Assembly: GCA_945861155.1 (NCBI GenBank) | Contig: CAMATN010000003.1 | Span: forward strand, 1 to 64,000 | Direction: 5' to 3' | From: Rhizobium sp. Q54 | Lineage (GTDB): Bacteria; Pseudomonadota; Alphaproteobacteria; ATCC43930; CGMCC-115725 | DNA length: 64,000 nucleotides | Part shown: positions 45,939 to 52,345 of the stretch, piece by piece | How positions within the stretch are numbered: position 1 is the first letter of the stretch | Layout: each line of letters begins with the position of its first letter | Made by a program: the position numbers and the translations under genes | The notes under the pieces: generated by a model | Database searches by the model: none | What the model saw: the letters and a program-made list of their open reading frames with translations, nothing else | Told to the model about the DNA's origin: nothing

Positions 45939-46886
45939 TTGAGCGAAGGCATTCTTGCGCCGGCGACGCGTTCGTCAGCGGGCGCCGTTCTACCGCTTCA
46001 TTTGCGCCGGCTCGAAGCGGAGTCGATCGCGATCCTGCGCGAGGTCGCGGCCGAGTTCCGCAACCCGGTCTTGATGTATTCGATCGGCAAGGATTCGAGC
46101 GTTCTCTTGCATCTGGCGCGCAAGGCGTTTTATCCGTCAAAGCTGCCCTTTCCGGTGCTCCATGTCGATACGACGTGGAAATTCCGCGAGATGATCGCCT
46201 TCCGCGATGCGACCGCGCGCCAGCTCGGGCTGGAGCTGATCGTCCATACCAACCAGGAGGGCGTCGCTCGCGGGATCAGCCCGGTCGCCTCGGGATCGGC
46301 GCTGCATACCGAGATCATGAAGACCGAGGCGCTTAAACAAGCGCTCGATAAACACGGGTTCGACGCGGCGATCGGCGGGGCGCGGCGCGACGAGGAAAAG
46401 AGCCGCGCCAAGGAGCGGATTTTTTCCTTTCGCAGCGCCGGTCACGTCTGGGAGCCGCGGCGCCAGCGGCCCGAACTCTGGAACCTCTACAACACAAGGC
46501 TGGCGCCGGGCGAGTCGATGCGGGTATTCCCGCTGTCCAACTGGACCGAGCTCGACGTGTGGGACTACATCGAGGCCGAAGGCATCGAGGTCGTGCCGCT
46601 CTATTTCGCCAAGCCGCGCCCGGTGGTCTGGCGCGACGGGGTTTGGATCATGGTCGACGACGACCGGCTGCCGCTGCTGCCCGGCGAGAGCGCCGAATTG
46701 CGCACCGTGCGGTTCCGCACGCTGGGCTGTTATCCGCTGTCCGGAGCGATCGAATCCGATGCGGCGACGATCGGCGACATCACCGCCGAACTGCGCCGCT
46801 CGCGAACCTCCGAGCGCCAGGGCCGGCTGATCGACAACGACGATACCGCCTCGATGGAACGCAAGAAAAAACAGGGGTATTTCTAA
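45939..46886 (+). CDS. cysD: Sulfate adenylyltransferase subunit 2
   Basis: CysD makes adenosine phosphosulfate from ATP and sulfate together with the CysN GTPase. The 315-residue protein has the ATP-pyrophosphatase loop [21 protein letters not shown] and the family end [11 protein letters not shown]. The start is TTG with GAGG nearby. Its stop overlaps the cysNC start by one base (TAATG), so the two are coupled. Confidence 0.95.
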
Positions 46887-48763
46887 TGCCCGACGATAGC
46901 ATTCGAGTCCAGGCGGCAGGCGACAGGACCCTGTTGCGGTTCCTGACCTGCGGCTCGGTCGACGACGGCAAATCGACGCTGATCGGCCGCCTGCTGTTTA
47001 ACGCCAATTTCATCATGGGCGACCAGCTCGAAGCCCTCAAGGCCGAGTCGCGGCGCTTTGGCACGACCGGCGACGACATCGATTTCTCGCTGTTGCTGGA
47101 CGGGCTCGAAGACGAGCGCCAGCAGCGCATCACGATCGACGTCGCCTACCGCTATTTCTCGACGCCGCGCCGCTCGTTCATCGTCGCGGACAGCCCCGGT
47201 CACGAGCAATACACGCGCAACATGGCGACCGGCGCATCGACCGCCGACGTCGCGGTGCTGCTCGTCGACGCGCGCAAGGGCGTGCTGGCCCAGACAAGAC
47301 GACATTCGCTGATCTGCTCGCTGTTCGGCATCCGGCACATCGTTCTGGCGATCAACAAGCTCGACCTCGTCGGGTTCGACCAGGCCGTGTTCGACAAGAT
47401 CGCCGCCGATTACGTCGCATTTTCCGCCGAACTCGGCTTTGCCACGCTCGACATGATCCCGCTATCGGCGCGGCACGGCGACAATATCACCGAACGCTCG
47501 GCGCAGACCCCCTGGTACCAGGGGCCGAGCCTCCTCGAGTGCCTCGAAAACATCGATCTGAGCGAGCCGGTCGACGAACAGCCGTTCCGCTTTCCGGTGC
47601 AATGGGTCAACCGCCCGAGCGGCGAATTCCGCGGCTTTTCGGGTACCGTCGTCGCCGGCTCGGTGGCGCCGGGCGACCCGGTCCTGGTGATGGGCTCGGC
47701 CCGCTCGTCGCGGGTCAAGGAGATCGTGACCTTCGATGGACCGCGCGCCCGCGCCGCGGCCGGCGACGCGGTGACCCTGACCCTGACCGACGAGATCGAC
47801 GTGTCGCGCGGCGACCTCTTGGTCTCCCCGCAAGCGCCCGCCGAATTCGCCGACCAGTTCGCCGCGCACCTCGTCTGGATGAAGGACGAAACGCTGGTCC
47901 CCGGCCGTTCCTATTGGCTCAAGATCGGCACGCGGACCTTGTCGGCGACGGTCACCGCGATCAAGCACCGCATCGATGTCGATAGCGGCGCGCATGTCGC
48001 GGCGCGCACGCTCGCGATCAACGAGATCGGCTTCTGCAATATCGCGACAAGCGTGCCGCTTGCCTTCGATCCCTACCGCAAGAGCCGCGACACCGGCGGC
48101 TTTATCCTGATCGACCGGCTGACCCAGGAGACCGCCGCCGCCGGGGTCATCGATTTCGCGCTGCGGCGGGCCACCAACATCCATTGGCAGGACATCACGG
48201 TCAGCCCCAAGGAGCGCGCCGATCTGAAGGGCCACGAAGCCGCCGTGCTGTGGTTTACCGGATTGTCGGGGGCCGGGAAATCGACGATCGCCAATAAGCT
48301 CGAACAGAAGCTGTTGGGGATCGGCTGCCATACGATGCTGCTCGACGGCGACAATGTCCGCCATGCGCTCAATCGCGATCTCGGCTTCACCGACACCGAC
48401 CGGGTCGAGAACATCCGGCGCGTCGGCGAGGTCGCCAAACTGATGGGCGATGCCGGGTTGATCGCGATCTGTGCCTTCATCTCGCCGTTCATCGCCGACC
48501 GCCAGATGGCCCGCGAGATCGCCGCGCCCCATTCCTTTATCGAGGTGTTCATCGATACGCCGATCGCGGAATGCATACGGCGCGACCCCAAGGGGCTTTA
48601 CGCCAAGGCGCAGGCCGGCGATATCCCGAACTTCACCGGCATCGATTCCGCTTACGAGCCGCCGGAAAACCCCGAGATCCGCCTGGAAACCGCCGACCAC
48701 GACCCCGAAGCCCTCGCCGACCAGCTGATCGCCGAGTTGCGCCGCCGCGCGATCCTCGCCTGA
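46886..48763 (+). CDS. cysNC: Bifunctional sulfate adenylyltransferase subunit 1 / APS kinase
   Basis: This 625-residue fusion of CysN and CysC (NodQ type) first drives adenylyl sulfate formation with GTP and then phosphorylates it to PAPS. GTPase motifs are GSVDDGKSTL (23-32), DSPGHEQY and NKLD; the APS kinase P-loop is GLSGAGKS (near 460) with LDGDNVRH and DRVENIRRVGEV. PAPS may feed sulfur assimilation or sulfation of a surface glycan; no PAPS reductase or sulfotransferase is in the window. Confidence 0.95.
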   Translation: MPDDSIRVQAAGDRTLLRFLTCGSVDDGKSTLIGRLLFNANFIMGDQLEALKAESRRFGTTGDDIDFSLLLDGLEDERQQRITIDVAYRYFSTPRRSFIVADSPGHEQYTRNMATGASTADVAVLLVDARKGVLAQTRRHSLICSLFGIRHIVLAINKLDLVGFDQAVFDKIAADYVAFSAELGFATLDMIPLSARHGDNITERSAQTPWYQGPSLLECLENIDLSEPVDEQPFRFPVQWVNRPSGEFRGFSGTVVAGSVAPGDPVLVMGSARSSRVKEIVTFDGPRARAAAGDAVTLTLTDEIDVSRGDLLVSPQAPAEFADQFAAHLVWMKDETLVPGRSYWLKIGTRTLSATVTAIKHRIDVDSGAHVAARTLAINEIGFCNIATSVPLAFDPYRKSRDTGGFILIDRLTQETAAAGVIDFALRRATNIHWQDITVSPKERADLKGHEAAVLWFTGLSGAGKSTIANKLEQKLLGIGCHTMLLDGDNVRHALNRDLGFTDTDRVENIRRVGEVAKLMGDAGLIAICAFISPFIADRQMAREIAAPHSFIEVFIDTPIAECIRRDPKGLYAKAQAGDIPNFTGIDSAYEPPENPEIRLETADHDPEALADQLIAELRRRAILA

Positions 48764-48778
48764 CCGCCCGACCCTAGT

Positions 48779-49807
48779 CTAGCCGGAGGCGGCGGGGACG
48801 GGACGCGCGACGATTCGCACCTGCAGGCCCAGCAGCGGATCGTTGTCGCGCGCCGAGCGGCACGGGGCTCCGTTGCGGGCCGGACCCGCCGTCGCGCCCG
48901 ATTCGAAGGCGCCGCCGTATTCGCAGTCGAACCGCGCCCCGCCGGGGACGGCTTTTTGCCGGATGGCAAAGCCGATCAGCGGGATGCCCCGGCCGGTTGT
49001 CCCGCAGGGCGACCCGCAGGCGAGCCACGGGGTTTCGGCGCCGCTGGCGGTCAATCCCTTGTATTCGATCGCAGCGGCGACCGCCGGGCTGCGCGGCAGG
49101 ATCGTAAACGCCTCGATCCATAACCCCGAGCCGAGGCGCCCGACCCAGGGGCTGTCGACAAAGCGCACATCGCCCCGGCCCCGAATATGCGCGACGATGT
49201 CGAGGCTCGCCGGTTGCGGCGGTCTGTGCGCCTGAGCGCGATCACCCATTCGGAGAGTCATCAAAACCGGCAGCTCCGGGACCGCCCCGCCGGACAACCC
49301 TAACGCCGCCTCCGCTGCCCGATCGTCGCTCGCGCCGAGGCGACGGATTTCCAGATCGAGCGGCGCGGCGTCCGGATCGCGCGCCAGATAGGCGGTAACG
49401 AGCGCCGCGCCGCCACCCTCCGGCGATCTGACGAACAGCATTCTGCGCCGGCCCCCCAGCCATGACCCGGCCAGCCCCAACTCGGCGATCCCGGTCTCGG
49501 CCATCCCCCGAGTCGCTCGGCCGAAACCGTCGCTGATCTCGATCGCACCGCCGATATCGGGCGGTGCGCAGATGTGGATCGCGGGCACGGCGAGTCCGGC
49601 GATCGGCTCGCGCCAGTTGGTCTCGGCAGCGAGGCTGAAGGCGTAGAACCCGGGGTCGAGCGGCACCAGCCGGGCGACGCAATCGGGCGAGGCCGCCGCC
49701 GCGGGGGACCCCGCAGACGGGGCCGCGCCTTCTCCCGGTGCGCCTGAGGCCGGTGCGCCGGAGGTGCCCGCCGATTTGGGCCGCTGCGAGCGCGCCGGAG
49801 TCTTCAT
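48779..49807 (-). CDS. Unrecognised protein, paralogue B of the GT-flanking pair
   Basis: This 342-residue protein is of a family I do not recognise. After a low-complexity Ala/Pro/Gly start (1-43), a first domain (about 44-157) opens with LVPLDPGFYAFSL and a second (about 200-336) has FHI-like repeats WVGRLGSGLWIEAF, IEYKGLTASGAETPW, CGTTGRGIPLIGFAIR and RNGAPCRSARDNDPL. The second domain is clearly homologous to that of the protein at 51287-52345. There is no signal peptide or membrane helix. Its ATG overlaps the glycosyltransferase stop (ATGA). The motif spacing faintly recalls ChW-type surface repeats, but this is not firm. Confidence 0.75.
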   Translation of the reverse strand: MKTPARSQRPKSAGTSGAPASGAPGEGAAPSAGSPAAAASPDCVARLVPLDPGFYAFSLAAETNWREPIAGLAVPAIHICAPPDIGGAIEISDGFGRATRGMAETGIAELGLAGSWLGGRRRMLFVRSPEGGGAALVTAYLARDPDAAPLDLEIRRLGASDDRAAEAALGLSGGAVPELPVLMTLRMGDRAQAHRPPQPASLDIVAHIRGRGDVRFVDSPWVGRLGSGLWIEAFTILPRSPAVAAAIEYKGLTASGAETPWLACGSPCGTTGRGIPLIGFAIRQKAVPGGARFDCEYGGAFESGATAGPARNGAPCRSARDNDPLLGLQVRIVARPVPAASG

Positions 49808-51177
49808 TGGTTGGCGGCGAGCACGGGCCGTTTGGTCCCGCTGCGGCGTTGCCGCGGACGCGGTTCTGACGGCGTCACGGGTGTTGCCGCCGGCTTTGCC
49901 CCTGCCGATTTTGCCCTCACCGATTTAGCCCTTGCCCGCGGCGCTGCCGCCGACGCCATCGGGTCGATCCCGGTGAGCTCGCGGATCAGCGCGAGATGCG
50001 CCGGCAGGCATTTCGTATTCAGGTCGAATTGCTCGATGACGGTGCGCCGCGCATTGCGCCGCATCCGCTCCGTATCAGCCGGGTTCTGCAATACCTCGCA
50101 GATCCGTTCGACGAGCGCGTTTCGATCGAAAAAATCGACCAGATAGCCGTTGTCGACGCCGTCGATGACCTCTTCGACCGGCGGCGTGCGCGATGCGATC
50201 AGCATACATTCGGAGGCCATGGCTTCGAGCAGGCCCCAGGACAGCACGAACGGATAGGTCAGGTAAACGTGAGCCGCCGAGATCTGCAGGATGGCCAGAT
50301 ACTGCTCGTACGGTACCCAGCCGACAAAATGGACGCGGTTGAGATCGAGCCGGCCGTGCACCTCCGCCAGCATGTACTCGCGCCAGCTGTTTCCTTGCGG
50401 CGGCCGCCGGCCGTAACTGACGTTGTCGCCGCCGACGATGATGATTCGGGCATTGGGGCAGCGTTCGAGCACCGCCGGAAGGGCTCGCATGAAGACATGG
50501 AACCCGCGATAGGGCTCGAGGTTGCGCGCGCTGTAGGTGATCACCTGGTCGTCGCGCGACAGCGACAGGCCGCCGCGCAGCCACAACCGCGCCGTCGGGT
50601 CGGGGCGGACGCGCGTCGTATCGATCCCCTCATGGATGATGCTGATGCGCGAGTGCCACAGGCTCGGATACTGGTCGCGCTGCCACTTGGTCGGGGTATG
50701 GCCCCAATCGACGGCGTCCAGGCTCAGCAGGTTGGATGCGTTGCGCATCCGCATCCGAAAGGCGTCGTCCGCGTTGGGCGGAAACTCCAGGTCGAAATCG
50801 AGGTCGGAACCGGCGACGCGATAAAAGAATTCAAAATACCCGAGCAGCGGCACTCCGGGCCAGACGTCCTTGATGAACAGCAATTCGCCCCACCCGGTAT
50901 GCCCGATCGCGATGTCGGGGGTAAATCCGTCCTGCTTCAGTCCCTCGCACAACCGGGCGACGGCGAGCCCGTTCATCGTGTTGGCTTCGAGATCGAGCAG
51001 ATAGGGTTGCACGCCGGTCGACACCGGCAGCGCCATGTATTCGAGGCTCGGCACGCCCTCGACCTCGCGGTCGCGGCGCTGTGTGACGAAGATGATTTCG
51101 TGTCCAGCATCCTTGAGGCGCCGGACCAGATGCAGATACTGACCAGGGAAGTTCTGGTGAACAAATAAAAACTTCAT
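49804..51177 (-). CDS. GT4-family glycosyltransferase with basic tail
   Basis: This is a retaining glycosyltransferase of 457 residues with a GT-B fold. The N-terminal domain begins KFLFVHQNFPGQYLHLVRRL; the C-terminal nucleotide-sugar domain includes ITYSARNLEPYRGFHVFMRA, FVGWVPYEQYLAIL and the E-x7-E region (LLEAMASECMLIASRTPPVEEV). From about residue 410 the chain turns into a flexible Ala/Lys/Arg/Pro tail without a fold. It lies between two paralogous unknown proteins in one operon, and its stop overlaps the start of the downstream one. Acceptor and sugar are unknown. Confidence 0.88.
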   Translation of the reverse strand: MKFLFVHQNFPGQYLHLVRRLKDAGHEIIFVTQRRDREVEGVPSLEYMALPVSTGVQPYLLDLEANTMNGLAVARLCEGLKQDGFTPDIAIGHTGWGELLFIKDVWPGVPLLGYFEFFYRVAGSDLDFDLEFPPNADDAFRMRMRNASNLLSLDAVDWGHTPTKWQRDQYPSLWHSRISIIHEGIDTTRVRPDPTARLWLRGGLSLSRDDQVITYSARNLEPYRGFHVFMRALPAVLERCPNARIIIVGGDNVSYGRRPPQGNSWREYMLAEVHGRLDLNRVHFVGWVPYEQYLAILQISAAHVYLTYPFVLSWGLLEAMASECMLIASRTPPVEEVIDGVDNGYLVDFFDRNALVERICEVLQNPADTERMRRNARRTVIEQFDLNTKCLPAHLALIRELTGIDPMASAAAPRARAKSVRAKSAGAKPAATPVTPSEPRPRQRRSGTKRPVLAANQ

Positions 51178-51286
51178 AACCGTCCAAGATAGATAGAACT
51201 GATTTCATTGACACCGGGCGGGAGCGCCCCCGATCCGCCGCGATGCGTATCGGGTCTGACGCCCGCTGAACGAGGTCTCGCTCGGC

Positions 51287-52345
51287 TCAATCGCCCGTCT
51301 CGGTCCCCTCGTCGTCGGATGCGCCAGCGGGTTCGGGGACGCGTTCGATCAGGCGAATGTTGATGGCTTCCAACGGGTCGTCCCCGGCGGCCGCGCGGCA
51401 CGGCGATCCGTTGCGATGCTGCTCGGAAATGCCGCCGGCAAAAAAGGAGCCCTGGTAGAGGACGTCGAACCGGTCGGCGTGCTGCGGCACGACCCGCAGC
51501 GCGAAGCCGGTCAGCGGCAACCCCCGGCCTCTTGTGCCGCATAAGGTGCCGCCCGCGACCCATGGCGTCTCGCCGCCATTCGGCAGAAACCCCTTCATCT
51601 CGACATCGGCCGGCGCCAGTTGCTCGAGCGGCCGGAAACCGAAGGCTTCTATCCGCATCTTCCGGCCCAGCGCCCCGACCCAGCCGCGACCCGGAAACAG
51701 GCGATCGCCGGCGCGCTCGATATGCAGAAGGATTTCGGTCGGGATGTCCCGGGTGCCCGACAGAACCGCGGCCCGCGGGCCGGTCGCACCGGAGCCCGGC
51801 GATCTCGGCGGCAACTCGGGTTGCCCGGTCCCGAGTGCGGCCATGCCGCCCGGTCCGTCGAGGCGATGCAGGTCGAGCGCCAGTTCGCCGGTGTGCTGAC
51901 CCGCCCCGCCATAGACCGCTCCGCCATAGACCGTGACGATCACATACCCGCCCCTGGGCGGCGAGCGCAGGATGACCGTGCCGCCCTCCCTGCCGAGCCA
52001 CGGTCCGCGCCGCGGGAACGCGGCGACGATCTCGACCCCGTTGCCGTCTTCGGCAAAAGGCGCCGACACATGCGCCACCGGTACGCTCATGCCGGCGATG
52101 TCGCCCGGAGCGCCGGTCAATTCGCCGATGCGCAACGCATAAAGGCCCGGATCGACCCGCAACATCCTGACCGTCGTGACCGAAACCGCTGGCGCCTCGG
52201 GCTCGGCCGAACGGAGCGGCGCTGTCGGCGTCGGCTCCGCGATCGGCGCGGGCCCGGTTCGGGGCGCGGCGCGGCCTCGCCTCGCGGCGCCCGGCCCCCG
52301 CGAACCCGCTTCAGGCGAGCGCTCTTCTCCGGTAATAGTCCTCAT
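51287..52345 (-). CDS. Unrecognised protein, paralogue A of the GT-flanking pair
   Basis: This 352-residue protein has a disordered Pro/Ala/Arg start (1-55), a first domain (about 58-163: VDPGLYALRI, VPVAHVSAPF, GPWLGREGGTVILRSPP) and a second domain (about 203-335) with GWVGALGRKMRIEAF, VEMKGFLPNGGETPW, CGTRGRGLPLTGFALR, RNGSPCRAAAGDDPL. Both domains align with those of the protein at 48779-49807, including the paired cysteines (CGT and PCR). It has an acidic C-terminal end (SDDEGTETGD). No signal peptide. It is first in a three-gene operon, 109 bases ahead of the glycosyltransferase. Confidence 0.75.
   Translation of the reverse strand: MRTITGEERSPEAGSRGPGAARRGRAAPRTGPAPIAEPTPTAPLRSAEPEAPAVSVTTVRMLRVDPGLYALRIGELTGAPGDIAGMSVPVAHVSAPFAEDGNGVEIVAAFPRRGPWLGREGGTVILRSPPRGGYVIVTVYGGAVYGGAGQHTGELALDLHRLDGPGGMAALGTGQPELPPRSPGSGATGPRAAVLSGTRDIPTEILLHIERAGDRLFPGRGWVGALGRKMRIEAFGFRPLEQLAPADVEMKGFLPNGGETPWVAGGTLCGTRGRGLPLTGFALRVVPQHADRFDVLYQGSFFAGGISEQHRNGSPCRAAAGDDPLEAINIRLIERVPEPAGASDDEGTETGD

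Follow-up and report, generated by a model that had tools for sequence, protein, structure and literature searches.

Genes A and B, which lie on either side of a GT4 glycosyltransferase gene in the window (the whole 64,000-nucleotide stretch analysed here), encode paralogues that end in a triple-ChW domain (ChW3). We propose, with moderate confidence, that both proteins are cytosolic partners of the GT4 that bind a glycan or an acceptor, and that the three genes represent a duplicated and displaced part of a surface-glycosylation cluster linked to type I secretion (T1SS). More tentatively, the cluster may be an unrecognised glycosylation-and-export system, working in the cytosol and common among acetic-acid bacteria, in which a lysin-type domain has been turned inward as a substrate or glycan-handling subunit of glycosyltransferases and, in one genus, has been placed on the DNA-repair protein Ku as well. 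If this is true, a cell-wall-binding fold serves intracellularly as one component of a sugar-transfer machinery.

The A-GT4-B operon and its products

The three genes form a reverse-strand operon in the order A, GT4, B (Table 1), with open reading frames, strands and the ATGA by which GT4 and B overlap as the earlier note had described them, and with 109 bp between A and GT4. The kinship of A and B was evident from their alignment (35% identity over ~300 residues, E = 4e-44), in which we found every one of the spaced motifs that the note had listed. The duplication is old: two further species of the window's genus have separate orthologues of A and of B, arranged likewise as A-GT4-B, and A and B fall into separate supported clades. 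The proposed two-domain build was recovered in an AlphaFold2 model of A, where a disordered linker joins a beta domain of ~110 residues to a second one of ~145 residues (whole-protein pLDDT 80). The Ala/Pro/Arg-rich ends proved genuine on inspection, and in A and B these tails contain few Ser or Thr residues and are not conserved. The two cysteines described as paired are both present in only 39 of 58 relatives and thus do not form an obligate pair, and a disulfide between them was ruled out since they are not co-conserved. A profile search found no enzyme signature in A or B, and a sequence scan found no signal-like hydrophobic segment in either.

Both GT-B domains of the glycosyltransferase are covered by profile matches (PF12000, E = 3.6e-59; PF00534, E = 2.7e-20). 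The N-domain match and the Glycos_transf_1 domain liken it to the Glyco_trans_4_3 group, whereas it differs from the usual GT4 in its incomplete EX7E motif: the second Glu (E318) is conserved, and Phe (F310) takes the place of the first in the 22 GT4s that we aligned. Around residues 305-320 the aligned relatives carry a group motif, YPFVxSWxLxEAM, that includes this Phe.

Table 1. Features of the A-GT4-B locus and Ku-ChW3 fusions of the same domain
Feature	Coordinates	Strand	Length	Remarks
Gene A	51287..52345	-	352 aa	N-tail disordered; first beta domain at ~aa 55-165, then a linker and the triple-ChW domain at the C-terminus (~aa 200-336); from ORF calling, Pfam and AlphaFold2
ChW3 (triple-ChW) domain of A	51326..51760	-		PF07538 match at aa 260-286
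GT4 glycosyltransferase	49804..51177	-	457 aa	Start at 51177, stop ending at 49804; PF12000 N-domain, Glycos_transf_1 C-domain, disordered C-tail
Gene B	48779..49807	-	342 aa	Paralogue of A; starts at 49807, start codon overlapping GT4 stop (ATGA)
ChW3 domain of B	48791..49225	-		Aligned with A throughout; own Pfam match absent
CysD (PF01507) and CysN-CysC fusion (EF-Tu-like GTPase + APS kinase)	45939..48763	+		Sulfate activation; convergent
Ku-ChW3 (L004)	contig C69 of the same genome, 3985-5778	-		Long Pro/Glu/Ala linker, C-terminal triple-ChW
Further Ku-ChW3 copies	L027, L030, L031, L032			

A triple ChW domain in A and B

The Pfam profile PF07538 (ChW, clostridial hydrophobic W; gathering cut-off 22 bits) matched A with 23.7 bits, a Ku fusion with 23.7 bits, and relatives at loci L026 and L028 with 26.1 and 34.5 bits, while B gave no Pfam match in the profile search. 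The family that the earlier note had called unrecognised thus has a partial name; no family in PHROGs or NCBIfam matched either protein. An alignment of 18 relatives resolved three units with like ends (..G..G...IEAFSI.P, ..CGTRGR.LPLTGFAVR and ..NG..C...DDPLEAI.VRI), and an internal repeat was detected between units 2 and 3 (41 columns, E = 3.6e-5) and in part between units 1 and 2.

The AlphaFold2 model of the ChW3 domain reached a pLDDT of 95.3 and a pTM of 0.89. When the whole-protein model was compared with BFVD using Foldseek, it matched siphophage lysins, taken irrespective of annotated ChW repeats, with E-values from 2.8e-6 to 2.6e-4 (probability 1.00 and rmsd 2.3 for the best match). 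Among PDB structures, Foldseek found no match at E<=0.001 to the full model or to the domain: the full model gave only low-probability or mis-superposed matches and the domain alone gave none, and a profile search of PDB sequences returned a single chance ribosomal match. ChW3 is thus a confidently predicted domain with no solved structural relative in these PDB searches. The ChW profile matches together with the structural matches to phage lysins support the carbohydrate- or surface-binding fold that the note had suggested.

We know of no ChW ligand described at the atomic level. ChW domains are otherwise known from secreted proteins, and A and B show no sign of the secreted or surface location that goes with them. 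In hydrolases these domains are reported to be cell-wall binding modules (PMC6403190). Our proteins resemble ChW proteins and the wall-binding domains of phage lysins in profile match and internal repeat, and probably in predicted fold, but differ from ChW proteins in their intracellular context, in their extra N-terminal domain, in having no signal peptide, and in the fusion of the domain to a glycosyltransferase or to Ku in relatives.

Genomic neighbourhood and fusions of the ChW3 domain

We surveyed 100 genomes from 99 genera, each genus essentially sampled once, of a family that is almost certainly Acetobacteraceae, judging by the closest homologue with a name, which lies on an Acetobacter aceti plasmid and adjoins a GT4. 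The ChW3 domain was present in 70 of the 100 genomes (69 of the 99 genera), and all 70 also contained a PF12000 GT4 (Fisher p = 1e-10, with kinship of the genomes ignored), so that none in this sample had the domain without the transferase. The two lay no more than 3 kb apart in 67 of these genomes, the other three having no such adjacency. In a class-wide sample, PF12000 was found in 58 genomes, among them all eight that had ChW3. The GT4 adjoined ChW3 in 29 of 30 short loci of the family, the exception being shortened and apparently cut by a contig end, and in 20 of 20 regions of 17-18 kb a T1SS ABC transporter, HlyD, a large glycosyltransferase, ChW3 and GT4 followed one another in the same order; in the 13 regions where gene calling resolved it, a Sel1-repeat gene separated HlyD from the large glycosyltransferase. 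The finding that would have told against the note's idea, homologues that never neighbour a glycosyltransferase in other genomes, is thus strongly contradicted, since this neighbourhood is conserved throughout a bacterial family. The symmetry of A-GT4-B reflects duplication at this locus; what recurs generally is a single ChW3 protein between a large glycosyltransferase and a GT4, next to a T1SS. This order, present in every large region of the family that we inspected and annotated there as 'hypothetical protein' or 'glycosyltransferase', becomes testable in laboratory species of Acetobacter, Gluconobacter and Azospirillum, which are easy to handle.

In one relative from the window's genus, HlyD scored above the NCBIfam cut-off for TIGR01843, and T1SS ABC and HlyD genes also stood beside ChW3 and GT4 at L026 and L028. 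A search for related loci with a narrow alignment returned nine, all from Alphaproteobacteria MAGs. RTX genes were adjacent in Azospirillum, Aureimonas, genome G008 and genomes of families f53 and f71; the order in the Azospirillum records was small RTX gene, GT::ChW3, methyltransferase, GT4, and in Aureimonas ChW3 adjoined an RTX-like gene near SapC genes.

Unlike in these relatives, the secretion genes and A-GT4-B are apart in the window's genome, and the functional link between them consequently rests on the relatives. Contig C11 of the same genome carries the corresponding secretion genes (response regulator, ABC, HlyD and Sel1), followed by a 690-aa possible substrate, a methyltransferase, a GT2 and a sulfotransferase, for which reason A-GT4-B appears to be the sugar-handling half of that system, separated from the rest. 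Contigs C63, C146, C11 and C118 contain several long ORFs with RTX repeats, which are candidates for substrates of type I secretion.

The domain also occurs within larger reading frames. In genome G008 a TPR-GT2-GT4 transferase and a whole ChW3 protein share one frame of 1324 aa; the corresponding frame has 1396 aa in Azospirillum brasilense Sp7 and 1384 aa in A. thermophilum, and genome G284 has ChW3 and a glycosyltransferase in one incomplete frame of 1197 aa. The junction contains a possible start codon and no intervening stop, and internal initiation, with separate translation of the ChW3 part, is possible there. At L025 (4393-8367, -) and L126 (11239-15429, +) GGSSM closes the otherwise unconserved junction linker and G-rich DNA precedes the ATG, which hints at such initiation. 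Another junction, at L033 (2585-3571) and L050 (2429-3415), where an N-terminal GT4 fragment passes directly into the middle of ChW3 and a further GT4 copy next to it is split, has the appearance of recombination or an assembly chimera.

Five species of the window's genus have a Ku protein with a ChW3 tail, the Ku part scoring as a genuine Ku of the bacterial kind (TIGR02772, 162 bits; cut-off 150). A Ku that bears ChW3 implies that the domain is stable in the cytosol. Together with the absence of a signal-like segment, the fusions to glycosyltransferase and Ku support the cytosolic location that the note had assumed for A and B. An open-access literature search found no paper on ChW fused to Ku, which is weak evidence of absence.

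Proposed function and alternatives

In our preferred reading, A and B would be non-catalytic cytosolic partners of the GT4 encoded between them. This reading rests on homology, predicted fold, conserved synteny and the shared reading frames. Their ChW3 domain, probably of the fold by which lysins grip cell-wall polymers, would most likely bind the growing glycan or an acceptor (a carrier protein) inside the cell. As an adaptor in a putative complex, it would keep this ligand at the GT4 and, among relatives, at the large TPR-GT2-GT4 transferase as well. Binding in the cytosol before export is suggested by the unit of an exporter, two glycosyltransferases and ChW3, and by the lack of signal-like segments and enzyme signatures in A and B. 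The complete cluster (T1SS ABC, HlyD, Sel1-repeat protein, large glycosyltransferase, ChW3, PF12000 GT4 and sometimes a methyltransferase) would probably add sugars to surface proteins secreted by the type I route, whether of RTX type or not, before they are exported. The duplication of A and B around one GT4 could provide two specificities.

The cluster might instead make a surface polysaccharide, as EPS or an LPS decoration, with ChW3 tethering the polymer to the transferases. The several glycosyltransferases and methyltransferases would suit such a product, as would the LPS-type sugar genes rfb and gmhA near the cluster of Azospirillum brasilense Sp7, but the partner constantly found in the surveyed family, ABC with HlyD, exports proteins by the type I route, and among the close neighbours no further family of transporters, polymerases or flippases is conserved. 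We consider this reading unlikely. Slightly less probable again is that A and B are themselves exported by the type I system, a route on which no Sec signal is needed and whose genes are clustered with ChW3 in relatives, and that, once outside the cell, they serve as lectin-like anchors or adhesins for the glycan that the glycosyltransferases make. A ChW-containing endolysin tail does anchor proteins on Lactococcus, showing that such domains attach to the cell wall elsewhere (PMC6700490); against this stand the position of ChW3 as the C-terminus of Ku and, in several lineages, of a glycosyltransferase of ~1300-1400 residues, the absence of an RTX match to A or B in the profile search, and cysteines that are not co-conserved. 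The earlier note had also offered A and B as acceptors glycosylated by the GT4, a less likely role than that of adaptor and in our estimate a very improbable one: adjacency to the GT4 and the disordered tails would fit it, but those tails are poor in Ser/Thr and unconserved, and what is conserved is a compact folded domain that other species fuse to enzymes.

The cytosolic-partner reading has parallels in known systems. GtfA-GtfB (Gtf1-Gtf2) pairs glycosylate adhesins, and HMW1C carries out cytoplasmic adhesin glycosylation. As hypothesised here, the ChW3 cluster would share with them the cytosolic glycosylation of an exported surface protein and a non-catalytic partner beside the transferase, but unlike in GtfA-GtfB this partner is a ChW lectin-like protein and not a subunit with a glycosyltransferase fold, and the exporter is of type I. 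A GtfB-like role by homology was ruled out, since A and B consist of two beta domains and have no GT profile match. Caulobacter FlmG is reported to be a modular flagellin glycosyltransferase (PMC7591256); it is alike in being a case of alphaproteobacterial cytosolic O-glycosylation by a modular transferase, and differs in its transferase, its binding domain and its substrate, flagellin. The open-access search returned nothing relevant on ChW with glycosyltransferases or on the Acetobacteraceae cluster, an absence that is weak evidence. The parts are of known kinds, and we did not find the cluster as a unit, or an intracellular ChW beside transferases, described; the data point to an undescribed system that adds sugars to exported surface molecules.

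Finally, the CysD and CysN-CysC genes that converge on gene B are of the NodP/NodQ type of sulfate activation. Their order beside B is kept in one sister species (L022, 5097-8658), and they are possibly linked to A-GT4-B. With a sulfotransferase also encoded in the C11 secretion locus, a sulfated glycan is possible.
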